A stretch of 64,000 nt of DNA from Chloranthus sessilifolius (Eukaryota; Streptophyta; Magnoliopsida; Chloranthales; Chloranthaceae). A program made the translations under genes and the position numbers. Positions 2,981-36,249 of the stretch are shown piece after piece (the first letter of the stretch is position 1; each line of letters begins with the position of its first letter). The notes beneath the pieces are model-generated. The model was given only the letters and a program-made list of their open reading frames with translations. It had not been told where the DNA came from and did no database searches. The DNA is taken from NCBI GenBank assembly GCA_021018995.1, contig CM037586.1:145928060-145992059 (forward strand), given 5' to 3'.

Positions 2981-3020
2981 GGAAAATTTATCAGACCGGC
3001 ACGGTCAGATACATCTTTTA
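2981..3020 (+). repeat. Left terminal inverted repeat of the MULE
   Basis: It starts GGAAAATTTATCAGACCGG and ends CAGATACATCTTTTA. It matches the reverse complement of 13437-13476 with seven mismatches and no gap. Similarity stops sharply inward. Confidence 0.8.
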
Positions 3021-3049
3021 GCACGCTTCGTTAGATCAGTCTACTTCTG

Positions 3050-4010
3050 ATACTAACAGTCGCGAGACGTCCTTCGACGCGCTTTTAATCTGCGCGGTGC
3101 TTCGCTACCGCATACAGCGAAGCCAATCCATCTACATATCAGCTCTGATACCATCCGCCTAGAGGACGGGAACTCCGCCAACATGGTTACCTCTGTTTCA
3201 CGGCCTACCATCCAGCTTATCGTACCCCTTACGACACGCCAATCGCACCACTGTGCTAAACTTGGCCTGCTCAAGCTTCACCCTGTACACTACACTAGTA
3301 CCTCACTCGCAACAGTCTTGGCATGCAGCTTCCCATGCCACCATGTCTTGCTCACCTGCCGAATCAAGCCCACAGCCTTGTGTCTCGTGCTCGCGTGCCC
3401 AACTGAGTCCCACGCAGCTTGCCTTCGTGTGTGTTCCGAATTACTAGCACACGTTCATCCTTAGCCCACATGCTGTTGTGCTCAACTGAGTCCCACGCTG
3501 TGCCCTGGTGTTCTCATGAGGTTGCCCAGCCGTATGCACCGCGACGCGTAGTCCGGAGCCATACTTCAACCTCCCTTGGGTGCCACACGGCATCGCTGAG
3601 TCGGTGTCCTAGGCCCACCCTTTCAGGCCTAGGAGACACTTGCGCCTCCTCTGGCAACGCAAGGCCCCGTGTGCGGGGGAATAGCTCTCAAGCTCCCTTC
3701 CCCTATATAAGGGTAAAACAGTCATTCAGCCAGAATGACAGGAGAACCTCAAACCCCTTGGTTTCACATACCGCAACGCCTCTTGCATCGCTAGCCCACC
3801 TTGGCTATGTCGCGACCGTGTCGCCCCCGCGTCCTACCCTCATGCGACCATGTCGCGTCCTCGCAGCGCGACCACGTCGCTAGGCCCACTTGGCCCCATG
3901 TTGCGTGCCCTCCTGGCACCACTTGTCGTGCTCCAAACACCATGCTGCAAGCTCGAGTATTGGCCCCGTCATACGTCACTCGCCCTTAGGAATTGCCCAA
4001 ACTACCCCCA
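3050..4010. other. GC-rich module at the 5' side of the ULP1-like gene
   Basis: This kilobase is strongly C/G-rich, while the rest of the MULE is AT-rich. It has repeated phrases (GAGTCCCACGC; GCGACC(A/G)TGTCGC several times at 3808-3880) and a TATA-like TATATAA at 3704-3710 on the plus strand, followed by 5'-UTR-like sequence to about 4240. It may be the promoter of the ULP1-like gene or a captured foreign segment. Open frames across it match no family I know. Confidence 0.4.
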
Positions 4011-4252
4011 ATGTAATAAATAACCGCCATTTTTTCAACTCTTCACTGTTTACCTTTCTCTATTTTTTACTTTTTCGTTCGAAGTCGGTGGAGAGTCGGT
4101 GTCGCTTCGTAGACGCTAGCGTTTAGTTCTACAATCTTCAAGCTACCAAATCACTGAGTTGGAATTAAAATTACCTTCCATTGTTGTAGATTTTTTTTTT
4201 CTCCTTCCTTTAGTGCACATTTTGACATAATTTATTAAGGTTATCCTATATA

Positions 4253-4385
4253 CAATCGATATCGATTACATATGTAATCGATATCGCTTACATATATAAT
4301 CGATATCGATTGTATTTGTACTCGTAATCGACTATATAAATAGTCGATGATGACTCTATAAAAAATCGATATCGACTCTATATGT
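4253..4385. repeat. ATCGATATCGA array 1 (5' flank of the ULP1-like gene)
   Basis: Several degenerate units of about 20-22 bp, such as TAATCGATATCGATTACAT, in both orientations. It is the first of seven such arrays in the MULE. Confidence 0.75.
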
Positions 4386-5102
4386 ATATAATTAATACCC
4401 ATCATATGAATATAATTATTACCCAACATATTAACTCCTCGATGCCATAACCCATAATAAATCATACGAGGTTTTATATTTATTTCAGCCGACGTTTAAT
4501 TTCCTTCAATTTATTGCCAACTACCCTTTTGTAAAACCATTATGGCAAGTAAGCTTGGAAGGATGAGAAAATTTAATACAACGATTCGTATTCTACCATC
4601 TAGGCGCTTTAAATACAGGTTTAGTTCGTCCTTAGTAAAATGAGTCCCTATCATCCCTACCAGCCCATCTTTCCTCATGACAGACGATAAAAAATGATAA
4701 AAAAATCAATTATAATCCAATCAAGTTCTTTCCCGTATGGGAGACCCTACCACCACTACCAGAATCAGATCCTCTGCAGTTCCTATAGGACGAATACGAG
4801 GAAGTACAGAAAATTTTGGCGAAGAAAGAAAAGAAAAAGAAGAAAAGAAAGAAAAAGAAAATTAAGACGAAACCACCCATCTCTTAACTCCACCCACCAC
4901 CTGCTCATCATCCATCTTCCTAAATTTTGGTTAGAAGCGTAGGACCGATCTTTATCGAAGAATCTTCTATCGGACGTTGCTGCCAGAGTCTTAGTTTAGT
5001 GTGTCCAGATTTTATTTTTAACTGTAAATGAAATATTTTGAATGTAAATGAAAATTTTTGAGTGGATGGAGACTTCATGAAATATTTTGAGTCTGTAAAT
5101 TA

Positions 5103-5470
5103 AATAACGACTCTAATTAAAACCGATATCGACTCTAAATGTAATCGATAACGACTCTACATGTAATCGATAACGACTCTAAATGTAATCGATATCGACT
5201 CTATATGTAATCGATAACGACTCTACATGTAATCGATAACGATTCTAAATGTAATCGATATCGACTCTATATGTAATCGATAACGACTATAAATAAAATC
5301 GATATCGATTACATTTAGAGTCGATATCGATTACATTTAGAATCGATAATAATTACAATTAGAGTCGATATCGATTACAAGTAGAATCGATATCGATTAC
5401 ATTTAGAGTCGTTATCGATTTTATTTATAGTCGTTATCGATTACATTTAGAGTCGATATCGGTTTTATAT
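5103..5470. repeat. ATCGATATCGA array 2, a tandem array that inverts to form a hairpin
   Basis: About seven 22-bp units read GTAATCGATAACGACTCTAA up to ~5285. The array then flips, and about seven units read as the reverse complement (ATTTAGAGTCGATATCGATT). It lies in the probable intron before the DUF1985 exon, whose T-rich acceptor is at about 5530-5540. The flip gives a potential stem of roughly 170 bp. Confidence 0.85.
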
Positions 5471-6334
5471 ATTACAGTTCAGTTAACATTTAAACTATTC
5501 TTGTTAATGTGAGACTCAGTCCTTTCTTTTTTTTTACAGTTCATTTCAACTAGCTATCAAGATAGTTGTATACCGACCTGTTGTCAAGTGTTCTCCCAGT
5601 GCAATTTCGAATCTCTACGATAATGCTACCCCAACTCGAAAGAAGTTGCTGAGAGATTCAGTTTTCGATGGAATATTTCAAATGCCTAATGGTGTGAAAT
5701 TTCTTTTCGATGTGGTCGATGCGATGTTGACGTTTTGAGTTGAAAAAAATCACTTCCGAATCGGAAAGACTGATGTCTATCTTCAGAAGTTGGACATTGC
5801 ATTGATACTGGGTCTTGCCGTAGTTGGCCCAGAAAAGTATACCCCGTCCATTAAACCACTGGAAGAACAAACCATTCGATACAAATACTTTCGTGGAACG
5901 CCTCCTGAAAAAATTCTCCGATCTCATAGATGCTGCAATTTGGAGAGCGAAAAGTGATGAAGACTTCGTAAAGTTGTCCCTTCTATATGTGTTGTGCATA
6001 TTTCTCTTTCCCGGGTCCCACCATCAACTTTCGAAAGACCACATCGACCTCATCGATGATGTGGAGAACTTTAACTGAACTCCGTAGAGTCTCCACGTGT
6101 ACCACGACTTGATCGAGTATATAATGAAGGCCGCGGCGAATAGAAAGATCGCAGAGACAGATAAAGCCCTTAAGACGTACAACACATATGGATGCATATG
6201 TGTACTTCAATGGTCGGACAGGGCGCAGTCAAGGATCAGAAGTTACACACGCAGACAGATGTTAGACAGCAAGGTATGAGGTCTATTAAATAATTCAAAT
6301 AAAAGGAGTAGAGAGATCTGATGCCGATTCATTC

Positions 6335-6595
6335 TAGAATCGATAATGACTTACTAAGTAGTCGATACCGATTCATTAAGTAATCGATAGCGATGCTGTC
6401 AAAAATTGATAGCGACTATTTAATAAGTCGATAACGATTCATTACAAAATCAATAACGACTTACTAAGTAGTCGATACCGATTCCGTACGTAATCGATAG
6501 TGATGCAGTACAGAATCGATAACGATTTATTAAATAGTTGGTATCGATTCATTACATAATCGATAGTGATTTATTAAATAGTCGATACTTTGCAT
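6335..6595. repeat. ATCGATATCGA array 3 (intron 6274-6652)
   Basis: Degenerate ~22-bp units such as AGTCGATACCGATTCATTA and AATCGATAGCGATGC fill most of this intron of the ULP1-like gene. Confidence 0.8.
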
Positions 6596-7284
6596 TTAGA
6601 ATATATGATCAATTTAGTGTGTTATTGACCGTGTTTTCTTTTCTTTCAAAAGGTTCGCGCTCTCCTCGTGCCTGTTGGCTTCGAATTAGAGATATCCATC
6701 TTAAAAGAATATCTACGGGTTAAAAATGTCGTTGGGGGGAAGAGGAAAGAGCCTCATGAACCAGTTAAGAAAGTTATGAAAGAGATGCGGCCAAAGAATA
6801 AGAGAAATTACATTCCGGTCGAGAATATTGACGAGGAAGAATGGGATGACCAATCGACGTCGGACGAAGAATCGTCCTCGAAAAAGGGCCCCGTCCATGC
6901 AGGTGTAGAGCGGCCGAGAACTAGGGGGGCCACGAAGGAGAGCCTAGCTGCGAAAGAGAGCCCAGCTGAACCGTCCACCTCCAATGAGTTGTTGTTGAGG
7001 AGGGTCGACGGTTTGGCGCTAGAGAACTTGAAGCTCACCCAAAGAGTGAGTGATTTGGAGGGATAGAATAAGGTCCTGGCAAAACATTGTGCTTCCATAG
7101 AGAAACTATGCAACTCCTTAAATGAGCAGCTGAAATCAAGGGATGAGGATTTGCAGAAGTTGAATCACTACAACTCGTTGGTCAGAAAGGGCCAGGGGAA
7201 TATAAAAGAACTTAAAAATTTATTGGAGGCGATACCTAAGGTATGTGTTGACACGTGGTATTTATGTGTTCAGATTTGTTAACA

Positions 7285-7475
7285 TAAATCGATATCAACT
7301 ATATAGAGAGTTGATAACGACTATATATTTAATCGTTATCGACTATATATACAGTCGATAACGACTGTATATTGAATCGTTATCGACTATATATACAGTC
7401 GATAACAATTGTATATTGAATCGTTATCGACTATATATACAGTCGAGAACGATTAAATGTAAAATCGATTTGGAC
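7285..7475. repeat. ATCGATATCGA array 4 (intron 7241-7512)
   Basis: Units such as ATCGTTATCGACTATATATA alternate with ACAGTCGATAACGACTG, so successive units are inverted relative to each other. It fills most of the intron. Confidence 0.8.
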
Positions 7476-8206
7476 TTTTTAAAATATTTTGCACCATTAT
7501 TTCGATGTTCAGGATGGCGGTATTGAGGAGCTGATATCGAAAGTGTGCGACACAACGGTCGATGAGAAACCATCAGCTCCCCTGCATCAGGATCCTCCCA
7601 CGGGTGAGGTGACGGCAGCTGCTGACGAGCTGCCTGAGACTCAAACCGATAAGGGTCCAGTTGGTGAAGAGTAAACCTCTTCCCAATTGCCTCACTAACA
7701 AATTGACCCTCGCTTAAGACCTAGGCAAGGAAAACTCATTAAAATAGCTGCCGTCAAACCTAGGACACAGCGAAGGATAGCGACGATAAAAAAGCCTATA
7801 ACCAAGAAGGCCATTGAAAGAAAAACTGTTGAGCCTGGACCGATGACTGATGCTACTGCTAAGCCTAGGTCTACGGCTGATGATGCTACTGTTGTGCTGA
7901 CAGCGGAGCTGAAATGCATGCAAGAGATATGGAACAAGCCTGAGAAGGAGGACGAGTAAGTTATTCTTCCTAGGACCAAGCCTGAATCTTTCACTTTATT
8001 ATTATAAATTTACAAATGTATTACGAAGATTAGTTACGTTGGCCTTCATTTATGCAGTGACTACATAAGCACCGTCGGTAACTATAGGCTGGTGGTGCAA
8101 TCTTTTAGATGTTTGGAGGGTACGCAGTACATGGACAATTTTGTAAGTAAAGTAAAGCTATTGTAGCTATTATAGGCACAAATAGACAATTTAAAGTTTT
8201 CGACGA

Positions 8207-8455
8207 CTCGAAATAGAGTCGTTATCGGCTCTACACTGAATCGGTATCGATTCATTTTAAAATTGATGACGATGACTTATATAATGGTTATCGACTTTAC
8301 AAGGATTTGTTATCGATTCATTGTATAGTCAATGGCGATTATATATATAATCGTTATCGACTCGACAACGAATAGATATCGATTCAGTCTAGAGTCAATA
8401 TCGATTATATAAGTCATCGCCATCGATTATAAAATGAGTCGATACCGATTATTTA
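8207..8455. repeat. ATCGATATCGA array 5 (intron 8143-8495)
   Basis: More diverged units (GAATCGGTATCGATTCATTT, AATCGTTATCGACTCG) inside the intron between two well-defined ULP1-like exons. Confidence 0.75.
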
Positions 8456-9464
8456 ACTCTAACTGCATATTTAACTCTAACTGCTTTGGTTTCAGATTAT
8501 GGGCGCCTACCTGAGACACTTGAAAGTAATTGATGACGATATTCATCTTGATGTAAAGCACAAAAGCTTCCTTATGAGCCCTACCACTCTGACGTACATG
8601 GGCTTTGAACTGAACGATTTCAATAAGTTCCTTCTCGCTGAAAGATTTTATGAAGAATCGTTCGAGAGTCAAATTAAACGGTGGGATGCCTATAAACAAG
8701 AACAGAGCCAAGGCAAGAAGCTGATGGAAAATTTCTTCTTCAATCAGTTTTGAAATTTGTGGGCTCACAAGTGCAGCACAGTATGCTTCTAACCTCTTTA
8801 TAATTTTTCTATCATACCCTTTGAGATTATATTACTTTTTTATAGATATTTATGCCAATTCATTCTCAACAACCATTACACTGGGCGCTTGCGATTGTGA
8901 ATTTAGTCAAATGATCGATAATAGTCGTCGACCCTATATTTAATAGGCCCTCTAAGGAAAGATATCCGACCCAATTAAAAACGCTAGTAAGATATTTTGC
9001 TTAGCATATCTTTCATCATTGTTAGCTTAGTATATCTGACATTCCTTTATTTTGAAACAGACCCACTACCTTCCCGCGGTTTTATATTCGTACGGTGACT
9101 CCACTGCACTGAACACGAAGACCTATCCTTGGTTATCTAGTGACTGCCGGATCAAAGCCCTTCCCCGACAGACCAATTCGAGTGATTGTGGGGTGTTTGT
9201 GGTGAAGTATGTGGAGTACTTCATATCGGGGAAAAAATTTGACTTCGCGTAATCAGATATGGATAGGTTCAGGGCAGAAATTGGCCATACACTGACGACA
9301 TACACCGGCGATAGGGGAAGAGAACTTGAGGAGGACGACAAAGAGGAGGAGGCGCAGCAGTAGTGTGGTTGTAAATGTAAATGACACACTTTTTGTAAAT
9401 GAAACATTTTTAATATAATTGAAATATTTTTTAAGTAGCAGTGGTTATAATGTAGAAATAGAAG

Positions 9465-9752
9465 TCATTATCGACTTATATATAGTTGTCATCGACTATA
9501 CAAATAATCGATAATGACTCTATTTAGAGTCGCTATCGACTATATAAATAGTCGATATCGATTCTAAAATGAATCGATATCGACTTTATATAAAGTCGAA
9601 GGTGATTCTGAATAGAGTCACTATCGATTATTTATATAGTCGATGGCGACTCTGTATAGAGTCACTATCGATTATAAATATAGTCGATGACGACTATAAA
9701 TAATCGACAACGACTATATATACAATCGTCAACGAGTATATATACAGTCGCT
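9465..9752. repeat. ATCGATATCGA array 6 (between the convergent genes)
   Basis: Units such as AGTCGATATCGATTCTAAAA occur in both orientations. They lie between the 3' end of the ULP1-like gene (9363) and the 3' end of the transposase gene (9907). Confidence 0.8.
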
Positions 9753-9906
9753 GACATCTTATTTGTACATTCTTGGTTGCATGTTTCTGTGTAACTGTAC
9801 AGGAAAATTACAACTATTGCGAATCAAAAAAATCTAGATTCTAAATTTCTGAGCAAATATATATTCTCGTTTACATTCCATCTATCTTTATTAAAAATAT
9901 ACACTA

Positions 9907-12638
9907 TCAACCCATCGGTCCCACTGCCGTGCAACTCCTGCGATTATGACTATATTCACTGCACTTGCTATACTGTAGGGCCCTAACCTCACCCTTAGAC
10001 CTTATCCTTCTCTTCCTCGGACAGCCGACTTACTTTCGGCAATTATAGGGCGGTCTCACTTTCATATTTTCAGGGAGTTGCTCTGCTTGGAACTTCCATT
10101 GGCTTTTATCGGGGGTGGCAAGCCATTGCTCGTCGTATGTTTGTCTAAAGCAAGCGGTGAAAAATCACTTCTCACAGAAGTTATGGTAGTCGTAACTTCT
10201 CCGATTGATGGCCGCCATGGCATGGGAGCAAGGCAAGCCATGAATGTGCCAACGGCGGCAACTACACGTCTTGTGTTCCAAGTCGACGTGATGAATGAAA
10301 TTTCTGGAGTTGACTTGGAATTGATCGCGCCCGTATGGTTGAGCTCTCTTTCTACCGGCCCATTGCAACACCTTCTTCATATGCTCGTCTGCTCTCGGGC
10401 AGAGGAGGGTGGTCCATTTCTCATATATCTGTCGGTACTTTTAAAAATGATCGGTGACTTTCTCTCTAGTAGTTCTAATTAAGTCGATAATTGGTCTCTC
10501 TCAAGCTATCTTTAGTACATTGTTTAAGCTTTCGGCATTATTCGTAGTAAGAGAATCGTACTACCTTCCTTTCATATGTACGCATGCCCAATGCTTCGGG
10601 TCTATTTTTGAAATATACTGTACGGCCTGAGGATCAGCAGAATCTTTCTTCATTTCATTCATAAAATAATCAAATCTCTCTACTGAATATGCACGCGCAG
10701 CTTTCCACCATAGACCCTTCACATTGTTCTTGGGATACTTGTGTGCCAAATTTTGTGTCATATATCGCATGCAGTAGTTGTGATATGCGTTAGGGAAGAT
10801 TTGTTTCACCGCATTTATTAAATCCTTCGACCTATCAGTGATAAAAATGAAATCTTCGTTAAACCCACCGATTACGAACGCACCTACCCGTTCAAGAAAC
10901 CACATCCACGTATCCTCTTCTTTTAACTCGACGACGGCAAATGCTAACGGTAATATATGACCATTACCGTCTTGCGTCGAGGCGATAAGTAGGATCCCTT
11001 CAAAACATCCTCATAGGTGTGTGTCGTCTACAAGCAATATGCGACGAAGTGTATTGCGGTAGCTTCTGATGCACGGGCCAAAACTCTTAAAAAATCTTTG
11101 GAACTTACCGTCAAGCGTAAGTTGAAAGGATGTTTGTACAATAGGATCTACCCTCTCCATCTCCTTCACGTAGGCCGGTAAATCCACAAATTATCCTTTC
11201 CAATTACCTCTAATATCATTAAGGGCAAGTTCTTTTCCCCTCCAAGCCTTTGCATATGAGATTTGCACATTATAAGCTTTTGCAATATCAAACATTATCG
11301 ACACCGGTGTGTAGTCGAATCCTTCCATAAGTTTATCCCGTACATAGTTGACTACGAAGGAGATTATTGCATTACGGTGATCGTGCGGTCCGATCTTAGC
11401 AACCCCGCATGTGTGAGTACTATTGAAAGTCTTGATTTGGAAGAATCGAGCCCAGTCAATTTAGACGCATGTATTCGCCACGAACAATCGGGTTCGTAGC
11501 ATCTAGCTATCACTCGATAACTAGCGGTTTTCACAGGTCAAATTTGAAAGTTTTTCTCCACCGCATGCTCTTTCAATGCTCTTTGAAATGTTTGTTTGTC
11601 TCGGAAGATCTCTCCAACTTTAAATGTCCAATTCTAATATTCAGTTTCCACCTCTTCATCAGAGGAGTCGCCCGATGTCTCTGATACTTCGTAATCTCCG
11701 TCTACTAGGGGATTATCAATGTCTCTCACAAAAATTTTCGGATCCTCTTTTATAAACTCATCTGGTTCACTTTCATAATCTTCTTCTAAAGTATCTTCAT
11801 TAGTGGGTTGAGGATGACTACGCCATTCACTAGTGGTGTTCTCAGGTGGTTGACTAGATCCTTCACCGAAGGGATTTTGATGTGATTGACTAGATCCTTC
11901 ACCGAATCGATAATGGCATGGTTGACTAGGCCCTTCACCGAAGGGGTGCTCATATGTATGGACATGGGGTTGAGTTTCTCCGGTAATTCCCACCGATGGC
12001 ATGGTAGAACATAATTCGTGAGTAAACCAAGTTGTCCATCCACCGGGGAAGATATGACTGAAATCGTCGGTATCCACCGCCCATTCTGAAGTGTAGTCTA
12101 ACCATTGACTACATTGTTGTAACCCATGCATGTATTTTAGTGGGTCATCATACGATTTAATCGGAGCATCGTTTAAATCAAAAGTTGCTTTTCTGGCAGT
12201 CATGTTCGCCGTAATATCGCTATCATCGCCTAACTGGACGATATCGTATACAGTTTCATCCTCAAACTTACATGGCTAAAATTCAGTCCAGCCAAGATCT
12301 ACTTGTTCAGCTTCGACTCGAAAGGATGACGGTTCCTTAATGATAAATACCTTTATGACGTCCACCCCGGATCTATAAAACGTAAATAGGGTGGCCAAAT
12401 CATCAGCGTCCAAAATGTCGACAGCCACAGGGGTATTCACTATCTTCATATGAAACTTTGTGAAAACGGTTTCATCCGCCCTCGCAAAACTGACAGCAGA
12501 CATTCGCCTCATGAATTGTTCATAAGAAACACTTGTCGAAATGTTAATAACACTCCTCCGGCCACCTTCATACAAGCCATTATCGTTTACAAGAAGGCCA
12601 TCATAGTGACAAAGAAGAGGAATCCTTATGTCCGTCAT
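9907..12638 (-). pseudogene. mudrA-type MULE transposase, decayed
   Basis: DDE transposase of the MULE. In coding order: an N-terminal PB1-like region (12638-12276, MTDIRIPLLCHYDG); an acidic linker (12203-11634) with three FGEGxSQ repeats; a MuDR DNA-binding region (about 11640-11380, FRDKQTFQRALKEHAVEKNF and CYEPDCSWRIHASKL); and the MULE catalytic domain. In that domain a first Asp sits in VDDTHL (~11030), the FITDRSKDL motif is at ~10840 and HNYCMRYM follows. Then come a SWIM zinc finger (10380-10165, CSCRRWHIHGLPCSHA) and a C-terminal zinc knuckle (YSKCSEYSHNRRSC) before a stop at 9907. Several in-frame stops and frame changes interrupt it. It converges with the ULP1-like gene. Confidence 0.88.
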
Positions 12639-12694
12639 CGTCTGTTTAATAATGAGAAGGAAGGGTCATAAGACTGATGAAACAAAAAAAAAGG

Positions 12695-12965
12695 ACTCTA
12701 TATACAATCGATTATATATATAATTGATATCGACTTTATATACAGACTGTATATATAATCGATATCGACTCTATATACAATCGATATCGATTTCAAATAT
12801 AATTAGCATCGACTCTATATACAATTGATATCGATTGTATATATAATCGTCATCGACTTTATAGACAATCGTTATCGATTAAATATAGAGTCGATAACGA
12901 TTATATTTGCAATCGATATCGACTGTATATAAAGTCGATGATGATTATATTTGCAATCGAGATAT
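12695..12965. repeat. ATCGATATCGA array 7 (upstream of the transposase start)
   Basis: Units such as AATCGATATCGACTCTATAT and AATCGTCATCGACTTTATA end 50-60 bp upstream of the mudrA-like start, in its likely promoter region. Confidence 0.8.
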
Positions 12966-12969
12966 ATAC

Positions 12970-13436
12970 TTTTCAAAAAATGATCCAAGGATATAAAGAC
13001 TTTCTTATCCTGCACGAATAGGAGATCCTAACAAATTGAAAATGTGGACCAATAAACTTAAATTATTTCTTATATTGCCCTATTAAGAGACCCTAATAAA
13101 CTGAAAATGGGGTTTATGTAAGATACCTCGCGTCGCAAGGGCAAACTGCAAGGTTTTCTTGTCACAATGGAGGAATGCACGGCTTCTTCTCCCAAGCCTC
13201 TGTTTTCTTCTTCGAAATAGCACATCGAAGCATATCAGATTAAGGAAGAGGACGTCGTCACCTGTGACCTGACCCACCTCTAACTTTTTAGCAGATTAAA
13301 ATGAGGAAGAAGAGGATGCTTTGTGGGTTAAAGAAAGTCATAAAAGGGGGTGATTTGGACTTTTTACTCTCCTTAGGGTCGGCTAGGCTTGGAGCTGGTC
13401 GGTTTGGGTAAAGGTGAAACTACAGGGCCTCTGACG
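12970..13436. other. Right subterminal region of the MULE; no gene seen
   Basis: Mixed-composition sequence between array 7 and the right terminal repeat. A small open frame at 13083-13277 (minus) matches nothing I know. It probably carries the 5' leader and promoter of the transposase gene. Confidence 0.4.
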
Positions 13437-13476
13437 TAAAAGGTGTATCTGACAGGGCCGATCAGGTAAATTTCCC
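13437..13476 (-). repeat. Right terminal inverted repeat of the MULE
   Basis: It reads TAAAAGGTGTATCTGACAGG and ends GGTAAATTTCCC. It is the inverted partner of 2981-3020 (33 of 40 bases). Confidence 0.8.
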
Positions 13477-14604: not shown

Positions 14605-17483
14605 TGAGACAACCTGGATTTTTACACTCGAAAACTCGTGCCATCAGGATCAAACTCTGGATGATCTCCGGGACAATTCAAAGAGTGTCTGCTCATCTAG
14701 CGGAAATCAGAGCAGACACTGTCCAGTAGTGGCAGATCGAGTCATCATATAAGGCTCATAAAGAAAAAAAGAAATAAAGCAATGCATGTATGTATATCAA
14801 AAGAATATACATTTTCAAAAAGGAACCAAGAAGAATCACTGGTGATGGACATCCATCACCAAAACAATGATCCCTGATAGTGGTTCCTATAGAATGTATA
14901 TAAATACAAGTATAACATCTATAATAAAAATATAGAAAGGTGGCCACCAGACGCATAGATAATCTAAAATATACAAGTATAGGACCCAAAACACAAAACT
15001 AATACCCAAGCTACTAATAAAACTCGTCAGCTGGGGTGTCAATGTCCTCCTCCTCTGCCTCAGCCTCCGGCTCGGGCTGGTAATCAGGATCGCTCTCTGT
15101 ACCGAAAACTCTAGCCCCAGAACCTATTATATTAAAACAGGGTGAGCTACCATCTAAGCTTAATAGAAGAAACTCAAATAATTTACATCTTAATTGTAAA
15201 ACATGATTACAGAATATAACTCAGACAAATAAGCAAGGCAGAGTACAGATAGAACTGGACAAATGCAGACAGATAATCAGATGTACAGAAAAATCCAAAT
15301 GTAGAGCTTGTAAGAGCAGATATAACCTCGAAGTTTCAAGATGCTTTACATATAGTATTTAAATGAATTAAAATAGTATACTAAAGTAACTCTTGTGAAT
15401 ATAACACGTGGTAGCCAGATGTGTGTCGATAGGTAACCCCGACCATCGTCGTTCAGTGAGCAATTTCAGGAATGTAACAATGCCTCATCTAAAGAACGCA
15501 ATTGTGTCGAAAAATTTCTAAAGCAGACGCACGAATGTGTCAGCCACGGATATACCATCAAGTCGGTGGGATTCGTCAGATAGATAAACTTAAAATCTCA
15601 TGCATATATATCATAATAACAGGAATCAGATGACAGATATCAGATAACAGGAATCAGAAGTGATGGAACTTTCATTCATATGCAAGACATGATTTAGAAA
15701 ATAAAATCAGAACATGCATCAGAACACAGAAGCTATGAACCCATGAGATCAAAAAATAAATGTAAGTTCAGTTGAATTTCTCCTACCTCAGATCAAGTAT
15801 TTCTAAGTAAATCCAAAGCTTTTTAAGATGTTCAGACTTTTACCCAGATCATACGTGTAGTATACTAAGTGTCGGAACAGTAACTAGCACAAAGTCCAGC
15901 CTTAAATTCTCCAGAAACCAAAACAGTAGAAACAGAGGAACTCGATCGATCAATCCCTCTGTTTGATCGATCGGGTTCACATCTAATCGATCAATCTCAT
16001 CATTGATCGATCGAATGTCTCAAACCTAACTAGTCTGAATAAAAAATAACTGATCGATCAACCCCTTGCTTAATCAATCGGATTCTCAAGTTGATCGATC
16101 AATTTCCATAGTTGATCGATCATACCAGCATCTCCACATCTTCATAATAGAGGAAATTTGATCGATCAATCTCTTCATTGATCGATCAGATCCTCAATTC
16201 GATCGATCAATCCCCATGTTTGATCGATCGAGCCAAAAATTCAAAAAAACACACCTCTTGTTTCATAGTGTGTTTTATAAAATTAGATCGATCAAATCCC
16301 TTATTTGATCAATCAATTTCCTAATTCGATCGATCAATTCTCAATTGATCGATCAGTCCCTCATTATAGATCAAAGGTAGATTTGATCGATCAATCCTTT
16401 AATTGATCGATCGATTCCTCAATTTGATGGATCAATCCCAACAATTGATTGATCGGATTTTCATAGTCAAAAAATTTAGAAAAATAGGCCTCCTATTCTA
16501 TAGTCTTCTAATAAAATTCGATTGATCAAATCCCTAATTTGATCAATCAATTCCACAGTTTGATTGATCAGTTCACACCTGATCGATCACTTCTATAATT
16601 GATCGATCAATTCCAAATTTGACATCGGGCTCTCACTTCCCAAGAAAAACACCCTTCTATTTCAAAGGGGCATTTTACACCATTCGATCGATCAACTCCC
16701 AAGTTTGATCGATCGGATTAGAGATTTTTCGATCAATTCTCAATTGATCGATCGGGCATGGTCGTAAGCTGTCATTAATGGGGTTTGTTGAATTCAAACC
16801 CATTTCATCTCTAACCTTTATGATTCTCCACGAATCATTCAAGCTGACCAAACACAGATATTTAATGACATCTAAACTATAAAAAACCCATAATAACTCA
16901 CCTCTTTGATGGCGGTTCCTTGGTTCACGGCATCCAATGTCCACGAGAGTTTTCATATTCAAATCGGAGAGTTTGTCGTTTGAGCTCTTCGGCGAACCAA
17001 AGGTACAACGCCGCGCTAACTCAAAGATGCGTTTTACTCTCTCAAATAGATTGACGTACTCAGGTCCATTCACTTACACTCTTAATCAGCGAATCGAAAA
17101 TCTAGGGTTTCTCAAGCTTGGTTTCTCAAAGGGTTTCTAGGAATGGTTTGCAAGCAGAGATTTTTCAAAGCAAGGAGAAAGGTATAAGATAATCCTGACC
17201 TTCTCTTACAAGCTGCAAATGGAAATATCTCAGATATTTCCATTTCTTCAACATTCACTCCGGTGTTGAGCGCACACACACAACACACTTAGATGACATT
17301 CTACCCAGGTCTAAATCGGAACTCGGATTCGTGCTGCAAGTGATTTATCACTTCACACGCTCACAGATTAAAAGTAATGGTATTAATATTCTTATTTTTT
17401 AAATTTTAAATTTGTCTTGATTTTCGTGCCGGACACGAATACCAAAGAAGTCAGAAGGTTTTCGGAATTTTAGAGTCGTTACA
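14605..17483 (-). repeat. 3' LTR of the Tekay-type element
   Basis: 2,879 bp, co-linear with 24929-27801. It ends ...GTCGTTACA on the plus strand, next to the polypurine tract. It includes the GATCGATC array at about 15940-16760. Confidence 0.88.
15940..16760. repeat. GATCGATC palindrome array in the 3' LTR
   Basis: Dozens of TTGATCGATCAAT-type palindromes spaced about 20-25 bp apart, with many diverged copies (TTGATTGATC, TTGATCAATC). The matching array in the other LTR is at about 26226-27066, so it was part of the LTR before insertion. Confidence 0.88.
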
Positions 17484-17497
17484 TTCTCCCCTCAGGA
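17484..17497 (-). promoter_or_regulatory. Polypurine tract of the Tekay-type element
   Basis: On the minus strand, CCTGAGGGGAGAA lies immediately before the 3' LTR, the usual place and composition of the plus-strand primer in LTR retrotransposons. Confidence 0.7.
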
Positions 17498-17779
17498 ATT
17501 TTTGTCCTCAAAAATGTCAGGGAGTCTCAGACAGGTTTATGGTGTTCCCTAATCCTAACGTGCAGAACAATGCAGAAACAAGCAGTCGAATATAGTGGAC
17601 AGCACTAAACTAAGCAAACAACGATCGAATATAGCGTACAGAGCAAGCAAATCATAAATCATGCAAGAACAAGCATGCATGCAGAACAGAAATTATATGA
17701 AAAACAGAATAATAGATATACAAATATAATTATTAAAAAATATACATAATAGCATAGTAATTACTTGCCAATGGAGCGG

Positions 17780-19172
17780 ATGATGAACCTGGCTCCGTAG
17801 GTACATTTGGTCGGCTCGATTGGGGTAGCTGAGTTCGATAGTCGCACGGATTCACAACATGATGGCGGGCATGAGCTAGCATTGGAGTAGAAGTGGTAGC
17901 ATATGAGTGCTACATAAGTATCTTAAGCATGCCCTCATGATAATCCAATCGTCGATGCACCTGACGATGGAACTCCTGCATCTCATCCACTCTCTCGTGC
18001 ACCCTCTTGTTGTTCTCGTTCATGATGACAAGTAGGATTTCAAGAGAAAGGGTGGAAGGCTCGGGTCTGCGTGAAGTAGATGCTCATGCAGGGCAGCGCA
18101 AAGGAATGGGGGCAGGTCTATCAGGTGCTTGGGGCTGAGGCGGAAGGTCAGGTTGTGCCTCCCCCGCATCTAGAGCTCTCTCTGCTGCCTCTTCTCCCGC
18201 CTCCACTGGAGGAACCTCCTCCTCATTCGGCAATCGCTTGACCAAAAGATTGTAGCTTTTGGTTCAATCCTTCAGCAGAAAGACCTTGACGTTGTTGTTT
18301 CTTCTTGGCTCGCCAGGAGCCATGTTATACACCTCACACACGGAGTTATACTATTCTACCATGCGGGTGATTAGGCGAGCATAAGGCATCTCCCCCTTGG
18401 GCTTTGCCTTCCTCGTCAACCGATTAAAGGCATCAAGCATGTCGTCTATAACAACATCGGTGACGGAGAACCAACGTTTCTCAAAGGTGGAGAAAAGAAC
18501 TTGTTGTACAATGCCCATACGCTCTGACCGATGTAAAAATGGGTAAATGGCACACTTGACATAGGTGTCAAGCATCCATAGGTTGTCGGGTAGTTGGGCC
18601 CTCTTGACTGATTGGCTCGATCCATGCAACCCATGGGTCATCTTAGCGATGACATCCTCAAAGGGCACCTCCTTAATGTAAGGAGTCACCAATCCACATG
18701 TCTCCACGTACCCAGATGGGCACTGCATCATTGCAGCAACGTGAAACTGGTTGAATCGGTATTCTAACCCATCAATCGTGGTAACCATTTGATGGTGGCT
18801 ACCACCCCGTCGAAGGTATTAGTAAAAGAGGTGTACTATGCGTGGGCAATAGTGGTCATGGAAGGTTTTTAACATGCGCTTAAGCCCTAGTTTCCCAACA
18901 TACCCGATCGCCCAAGCCATCTAGGGACGATCGTCAAAAAGAGTTGGGGTAAACTCTTGCTCGGGTAAAAAGCTTTTGGCATTCCAAAAATCTTTTGGCA
19001 ACTCACGTTCAAGAAGTGGTGGTTGGGGCGGGTTAAGGGGTGGCACGGGTTGTTGTGGTGGTGCCACGGGTGGCATAATAGGTTGGGCAACCGGTTCTAC
19101 GGGTGGGGTGGGTACGCGAGCCTGCTACGTAGGAACTTTGCGCAAAGCATTCTTCGTGCGCGGTCCCATGGT
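17780..19172 (-). pseudogene. Extra sense ORF region downstream of pol (aORF), decayed
   Basis: Between the pol end and the 3' LTR lies a coding-like region in the same strand as gag-pol. A Pro-rich start near 19172 (MGPRTKNALRKVP) is followed by a conserved-looking block at 18788-18351 (MVTTIDGLEYRFNQFHVAAM, ending LITRMVE), then an acidic/Pro-rich and coiled-coil-like tail. It loosely resembles the 'putative plant transposon protein' domain found beside plant retroelements; I am not sure of that. It is broken. Function unknown. Confidence 0.5.
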
Positions 19173-19404
19173 TTACAAATGAGAAAAAACACAAGAAAAA
19201 CCCTAAAGAATTTGAAAATTTTAGGGTTTACCGTGCTAGGGATCCGAAAAGCGATCGAAGGAATCGAGAAAGTGGAGCTCCGACAGTCGTGAGTTGGCGA
19301 AAATCAAGTTCGAACGCAAGGAAGATAGAGTGCTCTCGCTCGATGCTCTCCTTTTGATCATTCAAATGAGCCCATTCAAAACCCAGCGCCACTTAAGTTG
19401 ACAT

Positions 19405-19745
19405 ATTCGATCGATCAATGCTCAATTGATCGATCGGATTTATAACTTTAAAAAGCCCTAACCCGACATATTGATCGATCAATCCTTTAGGTTGATCGAT
19501 CGACTTCATAGTTTGATCGATCAATTTACCCAATTGATCGATTGGATTTCATAAAACCAAAATCCATTTGATCATTCAATCCTTGAATTGATCGACCAGA
19601 TTCAACAGTTGATCGATCAAATGGCTTATTTGAACGATCGGATTGGTCTAACTTGAATTTTCAAGACTGGTCGATCAACTAGTCAGGTTGATCAATCAGA
19701 CTCATAGTTGATTGATCAAATCATTACTTTGATCAATCGGATCTA
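19405..19745. repeat. GATCGATC palindrome array inside the Tekay-type element
   Basis: About fifteen TTGATCGATCAA-like palindromes lie between the aORF and the end of pol. This is a third array of the same motif as in the LTRs, but in a non-coding internal spacer. Confidence 0.85.
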
Positions 19746-19979
19746 ACAATAAAGCTGTTTCTTGATTTATAAGTTTTAAACCCTTGTTAGCTTAGTTTGA
19801 GGAACCATATGTTATCTCCCAATGCTATACCAGTATTATATGCAAGGTATATAAATCTAAAGATACGCCTAATTTGATTTAACAAGGATACAATACAAAA
19901 ATGAATTAATTCCAAATTTCAAAATTTTCCTCGCATATCAGTTAAACAAATGCGGGTATTGCTCGCGAATTTTGGCTTT

Positions 19980-22900
19980 GTGTTCCTAGGTAGCTTCCGC
20001 AGAAGAGTGATTCCTCCACTTTACAAGCACAAGTGGGATCATCTTAGTCCGTAAAACCTGCTCCTTACAGTCCATAATCTGCATAGGTTCCTCTACCAAA
20101 GTTAAATCCTCTTGAAGTTCAATCGGTTGAAAGTCTAGGATGTGTGTTGGATCCTTCACATATCTCTTCAGCATAGAAATGTGAAATACATTATGCACAC
20201 TTGCCAACTGTGGTGGCAGAGCAATCCGATAGGCGACTTCTCCAACCCGTCCAAGTATTTCAAAAGGTCCAATATAATATGGACTCAACTTCTCATGTTT
20301 CCCGAAATGCATCACGCCCTTGGTCGGCGAGATCTTGATAAAGACTTTGTCTCCGACCTAAAAATAGGTGTTAGCCCAATATAATTTGAGCGGATAAGTA
20401 ACGTAAAGCATTGAACAAAACCAAGTATACTTGAACTCAACTTGCGTTCGATGAAGATCGGCATAACGTTTTTGGCGACTTTGAGCAACTCTCAATCTCT
20501 CGTGGATCAACCGAACCATCTCGGTCCCACTATCCACGATATCAGGTCCCAAAATAAGTTTCTCACAGACTTCCTCCCAATTCAACAGAGATCGGTATTG
20601 TCGTCCGTATAAAGCTTCGTAAGGTGTCATCCCAATACTGGACTGATAGCTGTTATTATAAGCGAACTCAATCAGAGGTAAATGTTGATCCCATGGCCCG
20701 TGAAAGTCTAACATGCATGCACGCAATATATCTTCTATGATCTTGTTCACTCTCTCAGTCTACCCATCTATCTACGAATGAAATGCTGAGCTGAAGTCAA
20801 ATCTAGAGCCCATGCCTTCCTGAGATCTCTGCCATAATTGTGATATATAAAGTGAATCTCGATCACACACAATACTAACCGGTATACCATGAAGTCTAAC
20901 TACCTCCTTCATATACAACTTTGCAAGCAATCTAGCAGTGTATGTAGTACGGAACAATAAAAAGTGTGTAGACTTAGTCTATCCACAATGACCCAGATGG
21001 CATTGTATTTCCTCAATGTCCTCGGCAACCCCAATATAAAATCTATAGAAATGGCTTCCCATTTCCATTCAAGCACTGGTAATGGTTACAATAACCCTGT
21101 AGGATTCCGATTGTCTACTTTCACTTGCTGGCAGACCAAGCATCTGGACACGTACTCTGCGACGTCCTTCTTCAATCCTCTCCACCAGAAGCTCCGCTTC
21201 AAATTTTGATACATCTTGGTACTTCCAGGTTATATAGCATACATTGACTTATGAGCTTCTTCTAAAATAGTATCTTTAAGGTCCTTGTTAGCAAGTATAC
21301 ACATCCGATCTTAGAATAACAAAGTACCATTATCCTTGATAGAGAAATCTGCTCTAATCACATTGATCACATCCTTTCTAATGGCCATAAGCTCATCATC
21401 AATCATCTGGAGCTTACGTATGTTATCAAACAACATGAGCCATATCACAATGGTAATCATCAGTGCCCCTGAACCACTGACATCAAACCGTATATCACAT
21501 AAGATCAGGTCCTCAAGTAGATGCCACCTCTGTATTCTAGTAATAAGAAGTGACAATTGAACCAAAGATTTCCTGCTTAAAGCATCCGTCACAACATTTG
21601 CCTTCTCAGGGTGATACTGGATGGAACAGTCGTAATCCTTTAAGAACTCCATCCATCTGTGTTGTCGCATGTTCAAGTCCTTCGGGGTAAAAAGATACTT
21701 GCGGCTCTTGTGGTCGGTGAAGATATCAAACGTCTCACTGTATAAGTAGTGCCTCAAAATTTTTAACGTAAAAATCACCGCTGCTAACTCCAGATCGCGA
21801 GTTAGATAGTTCTTCTCGTAGTCCTTAAGCTGTCTAGAGCCATACGCTATCACTTTTTTGCGTTGGTTGAGGACACAACCCAAACCACTGTAAGACGCAT
21901 CACTATATATAGCAAAACCTCCTCTACCAAAAGGTATAGCTAGCACTGGTGCTATAATCAGACGCATCTTGAGTTCTTGAAAATTCTTCTCACATTGTTC
22001 GGTTCAATCAAACTTAGCATTCTTCTTCATGAGTTGAGTAAGCGGACTTGAAAGTTTGGAGAAACCTTTTACAAATGGTCTATAGTATCATGCCAAGCCA
22101 AGGAAACTATCGACTTCGGTTACCGTCCTTGGATGCTCCCAATTCACTACGGCTTCTATCCTAGTCGGATCAACCGTTATACCCTTCTCCGAGATAACAT
22201 GACCTAAGAAACTGACTTGGTCAAGCCAAAACTCACATTTATTGAGCTTTACATATAGTTTGTGATCTCTGAGAGTTTATAGAGCCATGTGCAGATGTCA
22301 TTCATGCTCTTCCTTTATCCTTGAATAGATAAAGATGTCATCCACAAAAACGACCACGAATTTATCCTAGTGTGGTTTAAACACTCGGTTCATTAGATCC
22401 ATAAAAGACACGGTGCGTTCGCCAACCCAAATGGCATAACAAAAAATTCATAGTGCCCATATCTGATTTTGAATGTCGTCTTTTGAATATCCTTTACTTT
22501 GACTCTTAGCTGATGATAACCATTTCGTAAGTCAATCTTCAAAAAGAATCTCGCTCCTTGTAACTGATAAAAAAGATCATCTATTCTTGGGAGCGGGTAA
22601 CTATTCTTAATCGTCAACTTATTCAACTGACGATGGTCAATGCACAGCCGCATCGAACCGTCCTTCTTCCTAACAAATAGTACTGGTGCTCCCCAAGGAG
22701 ATGCACTAGGTCGGATAAATCCCTTGTCAAGTAATTCCTGCAATTGCTCCTTCAATTCTTTCAACTCTAGAAGAGCCATACGATATGGAGTTTAGACAAT
22801 GGCTCAATACCCGAAACTAAACTAATAGCAAATTCAATCTCCCAAGCTGGTGGTAGTCCTAATAAATCCTCAGGAAACACATCAGGGTACTCGCAAGTAA

Positions 22901-23234
22901 TATGAATGTCAGAAATAACATTCTTTTCTTCCCGTAGCTCCTCCAGAAAAGTCATATAGCCACTGCACCCATTCTTCATCATTTTCTCAGCTCGAATAGC
23001 TGATATAAACGGTGCTACCTTGGACTTTAGTCTAAAAAATCTAAACGACTTTCTCTTGGGAGGGCGAAAGACTACGATTTTCTGTAGGTAATCAACGCTA
23101 GCATGGTAAGCTAATAGCCAGTCCATCCCCAAGATCACATCGAAGCCTACCATATTTAACAGTATTAGGTCCGCTCGAGTTTCCTCCCTTTCAACTCTAA
23201 TGACTACCGCCTTGTTCACTGTATCTGTTCTCAC
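19980..23234 (-). pseudogene. pol of the Tekay-type element (PR, RT, RNase H, INT, chromodomain), broken
   Basis: Landmarks on the minus strand: protease around 23234-22980 (VILGMDWLLAYHASVDY); reverse transcriptase about 22779-22020 ([30 protein letters not shown]); RNase H about 21967-21500 ([36 protein letters not shown]); integrase about 21300-20150; and a chromodomain at the C-terminus near 20080-19980 (MIPLVLVKWRNHSSAEAT). RT and chromodomain place it in the Tekay/Del chromoviruses. It has several breaks. Confidence 0.9.
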
Positions 23235-23532
23235 TGAATTACCCTAGGAATTGTTACTGTCAAAATGAAATCTAACTTCTTCGGCATAATTCCTATACGT
23301 GCTGAGAACATCTACGTAATAAAGAAATGTGTAGATCCAGGGTCAATCAGTACTCTCGTTTCAGTTTCAGATATATCTTGCTCTTAACGTATAGGAAGAG
23401 TACCTTAGTTTATTTATCAAACATACACGGTCATGAATGTAATCTAATACACAGTATTTACTTAAAATTTTGACGTACTAAAATTTACTAACACATTCAA
23501 TAATATAAGAAATCAATGACATAATTTAATTC

Positions 23533-24594
23533 TCAAAGCATAATGATACCTTGAATGACATCATTCGATGTCAGAGCATCCGTTGCACTGACGGCATATG
23601 CTCGACCTTGAATAACATGTCGAGAGAATCTCTGAGTGGATACCGATCTAGTCCGCTCCTTGCTCTCCTCTGAGTAGTTTTTAACCATGTGACCCATCTT
23701 GCCACATCTGAAATACCCCCCGTCTCTCTCCTGTAGTCTTCTGTCTTGTGCAACTTTCCACACTTTGCACATGACAAGGCCGGAGCGAAAGATGAGACCT
23801 TAGAAGATTCCTGCGCTACTGAAGCTCCGCTCTCAGAAGAATCAAACGATCTGAATGGTCTGGATGATGCAGGTATTGCTGGCCTCTGATATGAACTCGG
23901 CCTTGAAGATATCGCTGGTCGTGAGTGAGTAGGATATTTGGGAGGTCTGGAGAATCTAGCCCTCTTGTTTTGCTCAGGGTCCTGAGAGTGTCCCTGAAAT
24001 GACCTCTCTGTTTTGCTTGTCTCTCCAAGCAAACTGCTTCTGATTTTCCTCCATTGAAATGAGAGCTTTAGACATGACTACAGCATATGTCTCCAACTCC
24101 CATATGGCCACTTCTCGATGTATGTTCGGCCTCAAGTCAAGCTGAATCTTTCGAGCTCGCATTAACTCGGTGGCGACATGTTGCGGAGCAAACAATCTAT
24201 CGAACTCTACGCTATACTCGTGCGCTGTCATATGCTTTTGCTCTAACTTGATGAATTTCACTTCCCACTGATGCCTCACAATCTTGGGGAAATATTAGTC
24301 GTTAAAAGTTTCAACGAATTTGGCTCATCTCCAAGGGACATTGGGAAGCTCTTGCTCATGGTGCCTTGATACTAATTGCCACCAAGGCCCCGCTTCCCTA
24401 TCTAGTTTGAAGGTTGCCCAGCGCACCTTCTCCACATCAATGCATTGAAGCACTTCGAACACTTTCTCCATCTCCTCTATCCAACCCTTGGCCTCAATGG
24501 GATCTGTTTGACCCGAGAAATTAGGAGGTCTCATTCTCCTAAACTCCGCAAAACCGTCGGGTTGGTGAGGTGGTCTAGATGGTTGTTGATTCAA
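23533..24594 (-). pseudogene. gag of the Tekay-type element, broken
   Basis: Retrotransposon gag domain (FRRMRPPNFSGQTDPIEAKG and the downstream MTAHEYSVEFDRLFA segment) followed by a degenerate zinc knuckle (YFRCGKMGHMVKNY) near 23710. It is normally translated as the first part of a single gag-pol frame in this lineage. Confidence 0.88.
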
Positions 24595-24914
24595 AGCAGC
24601 AGTCTATTGAGCTACATTGGTAACCAAAGCTTCCAACACTTGCTCTATTTTGCCATCACCACCTCTTCTACCTCCTCTAAGTCCTATCGGAACAATATTC
24701 TCATTCGATAGGAACCCTAATCCCCTAGATGTACCAGTAACATCGAGAATCTCTCGCAGTGGGACTTCTCTCTATCCTTCTCTTCCTCCACTGCATCGAC
24801 CTCTGAACCTTGGGCTCATAGTACCGGTCTGTCATTGTAAAAATAATAACATTGATCAACACATAGATTATAAAAACAATCCAACCTGAACCCGTGGTTC
24901 AACCTAAAGTCTAA

Positions 24915-24926
24915 GCTCTGATACCA
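24915..24926 (-). promoter_or_regulatory. Primer-binding site (initiator Met tRNA) of the Tekay-type element
   Basis: The minus strand reads TGGTATCAGAGC, complementary to the 3' end of plant initiator tRNA-Met, two bases inside the 5' LTR. Confidence 0.88.
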
Positions 24927-24928
24927 AC

Positions 24929-27801
24929 TGTGATAGCCCGGATTTTCGCACTCAAAAGCCCGTGCCATCAGGATCATACTCTGGATGATCTCCGAGAGAA
25001 TTCAAAGAGTGTCTACTCATCTAACAGAAATAAGAGCAGACATTGTCCAATAGTGGCATAAAGACAGTAACAATGCATGTATGTATATAAAAAAAATATA
25101 CATTTTTAAAAAGAAACTAAGAACCACTAGTGATGGACATCCATCACCCAAAATAATGGTTCCTGATAGTAGTTCCTATAGAATGTATATAAATACAAGT
25201 ATAACATCTATGGTAAAAATATAGAAAGGTGGCCACCGGGCGCACAGATAATCCAAAATATACAAGTACAGGACCCAAAACATAAGACTAATACCCAAGT
25301 TGCTAATAAAACTCATCAGCAGGGGTGTCAGTGTCCTCCTCTAGCTCAGCCTTTGGCTCGGGCTGGTAGTTAGGATCGCTCTCCTTACTGAGAACTCTAG
25401 CCTCAGAACCTATTATATTAAAATAGGGTGAGCTACCATCTAAGCTCAATAGAAGAAACTCAAACAATTTGCATCTTAATTATAAAACATGGTTGCAGAA
25501 TATAACTCAGACAGATAAGCAAGGCAGAGTGCAAATAGAACTAGACAGATGCAGACAGATAATCAGATGTACAGAAATATCAGAATACAGAGCTTGTAAG
25601 AACAGACATAACCTCAAAGTTTCAGAATGCTTTACATATAGTATTTAAATGACTTAAAATAGTATACTTAAGTAACTCCCGTGAATATAACACGTGGTAG
25701 CCAGATGTGTGCCGATGGATAATCCCGACCATCGTCGTTCAATGAATAATTTTAGGAATGCAGCAATGCCTCATCTAAGGAGCGCAATTGTGCTGAGAAA
25801 TTTTCAAAGCAGATGCGCCAATGTGCCAGTCATGGATATGCCGCCGAGTCGGTGGGATTCGTCAGATAAATAAACTTAAAATCTCATGCATACATATCAT
25901 AGTAATAGGAATCAGATGACAGATATCAAATAATAGGAATCAGAGGTGATGGAACTTTCATTCATATGCAAGACATGATTTGGAAAATAAAATCAGAACA
26001 TGCGTCAGAACACAAAAGCTATGAACCCATGAGATCAAAAAATAAATGCAAGTTCGATTGAATTTTCCCTATCTCAGATCAAGTCTTTCTAAGCAAATCC
26101 AAAGCGTTTTAAGATGTTCAGATTTTGACCTAGATCATGCGTGTAGTATACTAAGTGTCAGAACAGTAACTGACATAAAGTCCAGCCTTAAATTTCTCAT
26201 AAACCAAAATAGCAGAAACAGGAGAACTCGATTGATCAATCCCTCTGTTTGATCGATCGGGTTCACATCTGATCGATCAATCTTATCATTGATCGATCGA
26301 ATGTCTCACACCTAACCAGTCTAAACAAAGGACAATTGATTGATCAACCCCATGGTTGATCGATCAAATTCTCAAGTTAATCAATCAAATTCCATAATTG
26401 ATCTATCACACCAGCATCTCCACATCTTTAGAATAGAGGAAATTTGATCGATCAATCTCTTCAATGATCAATCGGATCCTCAATTTGATCGATTAATCCC
26501 CATGTTTGATCGATCGGGTCAAAAATTCATAAAAACACACCTCTTGTTTCATAGTGTGTTTTATAAAGTTTGATCGATCAAATCCCTGATTCGATCGATC
26601 AATTTTCCTGTTCGATCGATCAATTCTCAATTGATCGATCAGTCCCTCATTACAGATCATAGGCAGATTTGATCGATCGATTCCTCAATTTGATCGATCA
26701 ATCCCAACAATTGATCAATCGAATTTCCAAAGTCAAAAATTTCATACAAGCATGCCTCCTATTCTATAGTCTCCTAATAAAATTTGATCGATCAATTACA
26801 CACTTTGACCAATCAATTTCCAATTGATTGATCAGGCCAATTGATCGATCAGTTCACACCTGATCGATCACTTCTATAGTTGATCGATCAGTTTCAAATT
26901 CGATTGATCAAACTAGCAGTTTGATTGATCGAGCACATCGGGCTCTCACTTCTCAAGAAAAACACCCTTCTACTTCAAAGGGATATTTTACACCATTCGA
27001 TCGATCAACTCCCAAGTTTGATCCATTGGATTACAGATTGATTGATCAATTCTCAATTGATCGATCGGGCATGACCGTTAAACTGTCATTAATGGGGTTT
27101 GTTGAATTCAAACCCATTTCATCTCTAGCCTTTATGATTCTCCATGAATCATTCAAGCACACCAAACACACATATTTAATGACATCTAAACTACAGAAAA
27201 CCCATAATAACTCACCTCTTTGATGGCGGTTCCTTGGTTCACGGCATCCTAGGTCCACGAGGGTTTTCAGATTCAAATCAGAGAGTTTGTCGTTTGAGCT
27301 CTCCGACGAACCAAAGGTACAACTCTGCGCTAACTCAGAGATGTGTTTTACTCTCTCAAATAGATTGATGTACTCACGTCCATTCACTTATACTCTTAAT
27401 CAACGGATCAAAAATCTAGGGCTTCTTGAGCTCGATTTCTTAGAGGGTTTCTAGGAATGGTTTGCAAGTAGAGGTTTTTCAAAGCAAGGAGAAAGGTATA
27501 AGGTAATCCTGACCTTCCTTCTCCTATAAGCTGCAAATGGAAATATCCCAGGTATTTCCATTTCTTCAACATTCACTCTGGTGTTGAGCGCACACACACA
27601 ACTCACTTAGATGACATTTTACCCAGGTCTAAATCGGATCTCGAATTCGTGCTGCAAGTGATTTATCACTTCGCACGCTCATAGATTAAAAGTATTGGTA
27701 TTAGTATTCTTATTTTCAAAATTTTAAATTTGTCTCGATTTCCTTGCTGGGCACGGATACCAAAGCAGTCAGAAGGTTCTCGGAATTTTAGGGTCATTAC
27801 A
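24929..27801 (-). repeat. 5' LTR of the Tekay-type element
   Basis: 2,873 bp, beginning TGTGATAGCCCGG and ending TCATTACA on the plus strand. It is the partner of 14605-17483. Confidence 0.88.
26226..27066. repeat. GATCGATC palindrome array in the 5' LTR
   Basis: Same motif, order and spacing as 15940-16760, with small unit gains and losses between the two LTRs. Confidence 0.88.
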
Positions 27802-36244: not shown

Positions 36245-36249
36245 ATTAA

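Follow-up and report, generated by a model that had tools for sequence, protein, structure and literature searches.

Phased 22-bp dyad arrays in the non-coding parts of a Chloranthus MULE, candidate docking sites for its VANC-like protein

The element and its seven arrays

The window analysed here is a 64-kb stretch of the 2.17-Gb genome of Chloranthus sessilifolius (contig CM037586.1, positions 145,928,060 to 145,992,059), in which a Mutator-like element (MULE) spans ~2981-13476, from a terminal inverted repeat (TIR) remnant at 2981 to the right TIR. The element carries a transposase gene, a convergent second gene that resembles the VANC genes of VANDAL elements, and seven tandem arrays of one 22-bp repeat (Table 1). 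These arrays probably act in cis as sites on which the VANC-type protein encoded by the element docks, as part of an anti-silencing system of the VANC/KIU type. An earlier note on this DNA had reported seven arrays of one ~22-bp palindromic repeat in a single MULE, and all of them are present, as seen with Tandem Repeats Finder (TRF) and in a motif search allowing up to two mismatches, which returned 72 occurrences, all within 4251-12927 (0.38 expected from 100 shuffles, maximum 2).

The repeat was characterized in 163 interior array units, picked by strong sites 22 bp to either side and thus independently of their own sequence. The core is best given as ARTCG-NNNN-CGAYT, with both half-sites conserved, four variable central bases, and nearly free positions at -3 and 12. 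The array core is a dyad of two half-sites. The period is strict; in a count covering 40 loci (one without sites), neighbouring strict sites less than 120 bp apart were separated by a multiple of 22 in 361 of 388 cases.

The exon model used to place the arrays combines open reading frames (ORFs), GT..AG splice signals and similarity to sister copies, without RNA evidence. GT..AG ends were found at the introns 6274-6652, 7241-7512, 7956-8057, 8143-8495 and 8771-9060, while a possible first coding exon near 4660-4900, which has no motif match with up to two mismatches, was left out of the model. Within 3975-13476, all 40 strict ARTCGN4CGAYT sites lie outside the exon model, and a single one of the 46 looser TCGN4CGA sites falls in an exon, at 6872. 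An entirely non-coding set of seven arrays arose in only 4 of 20,000 trials of random independent placement, and circular shifting produced one 17 times in 1,901. The earlier claim that the arrays are confined to non-coding parts and spare the exons is borne out by these counts, as is the statement that the 102-bp intron 7956-8057 is free of the motif: neither this intron nor the last one, 8771-9060, has a match at up to two mismatches. What looks by eye like a decayed motif remnant lies in the last intron near 8912-8945.

Table 1. Features of the MULE in the window (window coordinates)
Feature	Position	Strand	Evidence or remark
Left TIR remnant	2981..3020	+	82.5% match over 40 bp to the inverted right TIR (13437-13476)
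Array 1, in the 5' flanking DNA of the DUF1985/Ulp1 gene	4247..4383		TRF, period 22
Array 2, upstream of the DUF1985 exon, probably intronic	5104..5461		TRF; counterpart in sister copies E_C13 and E_C1
DUF1985/plant mobile domain (PMD) exon of the VANC-like gene	5522..6273	+	DUF1985 E 0.0026 on 5824-6078
Array 3, in intron 6274-6652	6325..6588		TRF; GT..AG ends
Coiled-coil exon	6653..7240	+	Sister L071:1737-2294 weakly matches several coiled-coil models, all under cut-off
Array 4, in intron 7241-7512	7287..7452		TRF; GT..AG ends
Array 5, in intron 8143-8495	8219..8450		TRF; GT..AG ends
Ulp1 (Peptidase_C48) exon	9061..9363	+	PF02902 E 8.2e-8 on 9040-9252
Array 6, between the convergent genes	9462..9750		TRF
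MULE transposase gene (DBD, MULE and SWIM domains), approximate bounds	9990..12665	-	PF10551 E 5e-15, SWIM E 6e-11
Array 7, upstream of the transposase start	12745..12960		TRF
Right TIR	13437..13476	-	Inverted match to 2981-3020; sister copies have longer TIRs

The window copy is decayed, its DUF1985 exon being broken across two frames. The stretch 3021-3974 has no counterpart in the sister copy E_C13, with which similarity begins at 3975. For the transposase, a DBD_Tnp_Mut domain was matched in a sister at L073:2883-4385 (E 3.9e-15).

Sister copies and genome-wide occurrence

Sister copies were fetched by transposase similarity, and an array was scored as three or more TCGN4CGA sites. The three long sister copies (E_C6, E_C13 and E_C1) carry 5, 6 and 7 arrays whose positions correspond in offset. 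The arrays thus belong to the element itself, as had been proposed, and are not missing from its relatives. Each place largely keeps its own mix of core variants across the sisters, such as ATAT/ATAA in array 2 of the window copy, E_C13 and E_C1, and the arrays therefore look old and inherited. The earlier suggestions of repeated seeding or of gene-conversion-like copying between introns find no support here as recent processes.

Genome-wide, in counts covering spacings of 22 and 17 bp, strict site pairs numbered 25,635 at 22 bp versus 9 at 17 bp, and the reversed control pattern gave 0 pairs at both. These numbers bear on the possibility that the arrays are neutral microsatellites grown by slippage wherever coding selection permitted. 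Array lengths do vary between copies, pairwise identity between copies is mostly lower in arrays than in coding parts, and slippage alone also maintains a period. Against this, a single motif with a single period recurs at seven places, the half-sites are conserved around a free centre while positions -3 and 12 are nearly free, the 17-bp spacing is almost absent, and arrays are kept in derivatives that have lost the genes (below). We regard neutral slippage as highly improbable.

All ten array loci fetched without reference to genes proved to lie in copies of the window's MULE family when compared with arrays masked. Seven match coding parts or gene flanks of the family, and the other three (L075, L081 and L082) are short TIR-array-TIR derivatives without genes. 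The ten comprise the first two listed clusters (L001-L008), six lone or small clusters (L075-L080, hand-picked from the same list), and L081 and L082, which were chosen with other core centres; all lie within the initial 20 Mb of a single contig (C1) and do not represent a random sample of the genome. The same queries also match control stretches (30 DUF1985 loci and window 14001-64000), with these matches falling outside the stretch shared by the family, in flanks and in E_C6 DNA left of ~3,900. As far as sampled, the 22-bp repeat is no general satellite, and the earlier note's alternative of a satellite in unrelated introns was not what the sample returned. With L075 as query, 22 of 40 loci (L075 itself included, counted by hand) align in a single stretch with 1,400 bp or more of its 1,523 bp, and core sites were present within 1.5 kb at 29 of 30 transposase-domain loci, the window copy among them.

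The sampled loci also bear on a reading in which the element exploits a host factor that binds the arrays, which would then act as enhancer, nucleosome-phasing or insulator sites. Phased palindromic sites would suit any dimeric factor, and a different palindrome occurs in phased arrays in an LTR (long terminal repeat) retrotransposon elsewhere in the window. Since all ten array loci lie within the MULE family, however, no use of the arrays in host genes was seen, and we consider a host-factor role quite unlikely.

E_C1 has TIRs of 95 bp with 88% identity and E_C13 has TIRs of ~84 bp (a 99-bp alignment at 91% takes in a flanking TA repeat), while no TIR pair was found for E_C6. Target-site repeats of ~9-10 bp were seen by eye at E_C1 and L075, and none was seen by eye at the window copy. 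These ends are relevant to the reading that the arrays are internal binding sites for the MULE transposase, serving transposition or self-regulation. One array lies directly upstream of the transposase start, arrays are kept in short elements that retain little beyond TIRs, and the inverted repeats of L075, a fold-back element, extend into its array. The TIRs of E_C1 and E_C13 themselves, however, hold no array unit, transposase sites would not need to be repeated in introns, and the element has a second gene from a family known for such binding. Transposase binding is thus a very unlikely role.

The second gene and VANC21

The plus-strand second gene includes exons for a DUF1985-like part, a coiled coil and, C-terminally, a Ulp1 (C48) peptidase; judging by their order and splice signals, the DUF1985 and Ulp1 exons would lie on one transcript. 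In a sister copy, L071:400-1233 matches the plant mobile domain at E 1.3e-8, exactly at the curated cut-off. The peptidase matches PF02902 at E 8.2e-8 in the window and 1.5e-10 in a sister, both partial and confined to the C-terminal part of the profile.

Profile comparisons place the protein near VANC21, the anti-silencing protein of Arabidopsis VANDAL21. Six array-family proteins aligned to six other DUF1985 proteins of the genome with an hhalign probability of 98.8% (E 9.8e-17). The set of other DUF1985 proteins in turn finds VANC21 (9lnj, 9lnk) in the PDB at E 1.5e-6, followed by seven other chains at E 0.14-0.79, and a joint profile of eight proteins reaches VANC21 at E 2e-9, as the sole solved structure up to E 1. 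On this sequence evidence, the second-gene protein is homologous to VANC21. A side observation on DUF1985 genes comes from L053 (257-1197 and 1402-2100), a different MULE whose transposase lies close to a DUF1985 gene and whose fetched stretch holds no arrays.

DUF1985 is carried by VANC proteins, and in Arabidopsis VANC21 was found by ChIP-seq (chromatin immunoprecipitation sequencing) and EMSA (electrophoretic mobility shift assay) to bind a nine-base motif of VANDAL21, with loss of methylation (PMC5735166). Its targets are introns and the intergenic and terminal non-coding parts of VANDAL21, where the motif forms tandem arrays upstream of VANA21 as well as in VANC21 and VANB21 introns (PMC5735166); the earlier note's remark that it knew of no description of intron-resident arrays in MULEs is overturned by this work. 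Host RNA-directed DNA methylation also targets non-coding parts (PMC10398659). Some VANC genes (KIU) bear a Ulp1 domain and act likewise (2026 review, PMC13317346, citing Sasaki et al. 2022 EMBO J).

Like VANDAL21 (Hiun) with VANC21 (PMC5735166; PMC10398659), the Chloranthus family is a MULE with a transposase and a DUF1985 protein, and has a family-specific short motif in tandem arrays that gain and lose units and occupy introns, intergenic and upstream parts, not exons. Unlike VANDAL21, whose motif is YAGTATTAY, it has a 14-bp CpG-containing dyad with a strict 22-bp period, a Ulp1 domain in the VANC-like gene and TIRs of ~84-95 bp, and its function is a prediction. The likeness to the KIU (Kaonashi) genes lies in a VANC gene with a Ulp1/C48 domain inside a MULE, and KIU proteins are reported to recognise non-coding motifs within their own family; KIU elements are described as non-TIR MULEs, unlike the family described here (PMC13317346). 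The absent or short, degenerate TIRs characteristic of the VANDAL clade were not seen in E_C13 and E_C1, and some members of that clade do possess TIRs (PMC6446971). As a 10-mer, the core occurs in 31 papers, and none of the ten titles listed concerns transposons.

A candidate anti-silencing system

The family shares several marks of a VANC-type (KIU) element: a MULE transposase, a VANC-homologous DUF1985 protein, a Ulp1/C48 domain in the same gene, and non-coding, family-specific tandem arrays. A VANC/KIU-type system is the most likely explanation because of the homology to VANC21 and because VANC proteins bind tandem motifs of their own VANDAL MULEs and remove silencing. Systems of this kind are known; the Chloranthus family would add one with clear TIRs and with CpGs in its dyad. 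The earlier note had named a binding-site role among several options; this part stands as the best reading, although the note named the transposase or host factors and not the element's second gene.

We propose that the VANC-type protein, with its DUF1985/PMD part, coiled coil and Ulp1 peptidase, would dock on the arrays of family members, perhaps as a dimer, since each site pairs two ARTCG half-sites in dyad symmetry across a 4-bp gap. It would load in phase every 22 bp (about two turns of DNA) on the non-coding parts, and gene-less copies would be loaded as well. DNA methylation would then be removed or blocked at the loaded arrays, so that the element's genes could be expressed and the element could move. 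Binding, dimerisation and demethylation at the arrays are all inferred steps. Sasaki and colleagues reportedly stressed motif density, helical periodicity and non-autonomous copies, and in that case the 22-bp phase seen here would fit well, as would the short elements.

Several observations weigh against this proposal. Between the four copies, CpG decay was 25.9% in arrays, 28.9% in coding parts and 36.4% in other non-coding parts, the last value being inflated by the poor alignment of E_C6 (34 exon alignment columns were also masked as array); relative to other transitions, it was 4.9 in arrays, 4.9 in non-coding and 6.3 in coding parts. Because arrays equal other non-coding DNA on the relative scale, there is no trace of germline hypomethylation and no special protection of array CpGs. 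Most of the CpG change will postdate the death of the copies. The arrays are also incomplete in places, with arrays 1 and 2 missing from E_C6, array 4 of E_C13 under the count of three sites, and no core site within 1.5 kb of L014, one of the 30 transposase loci. Thirty other DUF1985 loci were searched out to 1.5 kb; 29 of them, L053 included, show no comparable array and nothing beyond short repeats in 2-4 copies, and the one array present, at L057, comes from an LTR element, so a DUF1985 gene does not imply arrays. Finally, all Pfam DUF1985 scores of array-family proteins are under the curated cut-off, including those of sister L071:400-1233 (E 2.6e-4) and of two divergent family members (2e-5 and 5.5e-7). 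A profile of the array-family proteins alone gave nothing significant and missed VANC21, so that the link to VANC21 rests on intermediate proteins, and two single array-family proteins likewise gave no VANC21 match.

If the VANC/KIU-type reading is correct, sequence alone suffices to recognise such a system in a plant genome of 2.17 Gb, where target sites run into the tens of thousands and are retained by derivatives without genes. Concrete predictions for the solved VANC21 structures would follow from the dyad, from its CpGs and from the strict 22-bp phase, and the very many array sites are natural variants from which to learn which half-site changes matter.

The LTR retrotransposon mentioned above is of Ty3/gypsy type (window 14605-27803, minus strand, with RNase H and protease). 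The palindrome TTGATCGATCAA forms arrays, with units mostly 19-21 bp apart, in its LTRs (~14605-17485 and 24929-27803) and in its 3' spacer (19.4-19.7 kb), and closely spaced TTGATCGATCAA pairs number 34,000 per strand genome-wide, with 0 for the reversed control. An apparent solo LTR of the same kind of retrotransposon lies at 33598-36246, with a dense TTGATCGATCAA array at 34906-35496 and, by eye, an ATTAA target-site repeat. One could suppose that helically phased dyad arrays are an anti-silencing device shared by unrelated elements, the MULE with its VANC-like protein and this Ty3/gypsy family; the MULE dyad, which contains CpGs, would possibly sense methylation, and the gypsy TTGATCGATCAA arrays (19-21 bp) would be served by a factor of their own or a hijacked one. 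This idea, which would extend the VANC principle to LTR retrotransposons, we consider unlikely.

Two candidates were set aside. A minus-strand ORF between pol and the 3' LTR of the Ty3/gypsy element (18351-18818), possibly an additional ORF, has no Pfam match and no similarity to VANC-like or DUF1985-like proteins (hhalign 0.2%). L057, considered as a DUF1985 element with its own GATCGATC arrays, was rejected because its similarity to other DUF1985 loci stops before the array and the adjoining DNA matches the window LTRs; the array belongs to an inserted LTR element. To the left of the MULE, a minus-strand ORF at 1560-2057 resembles a small heat-shock (Hsp20) protein, a name given by reading only.

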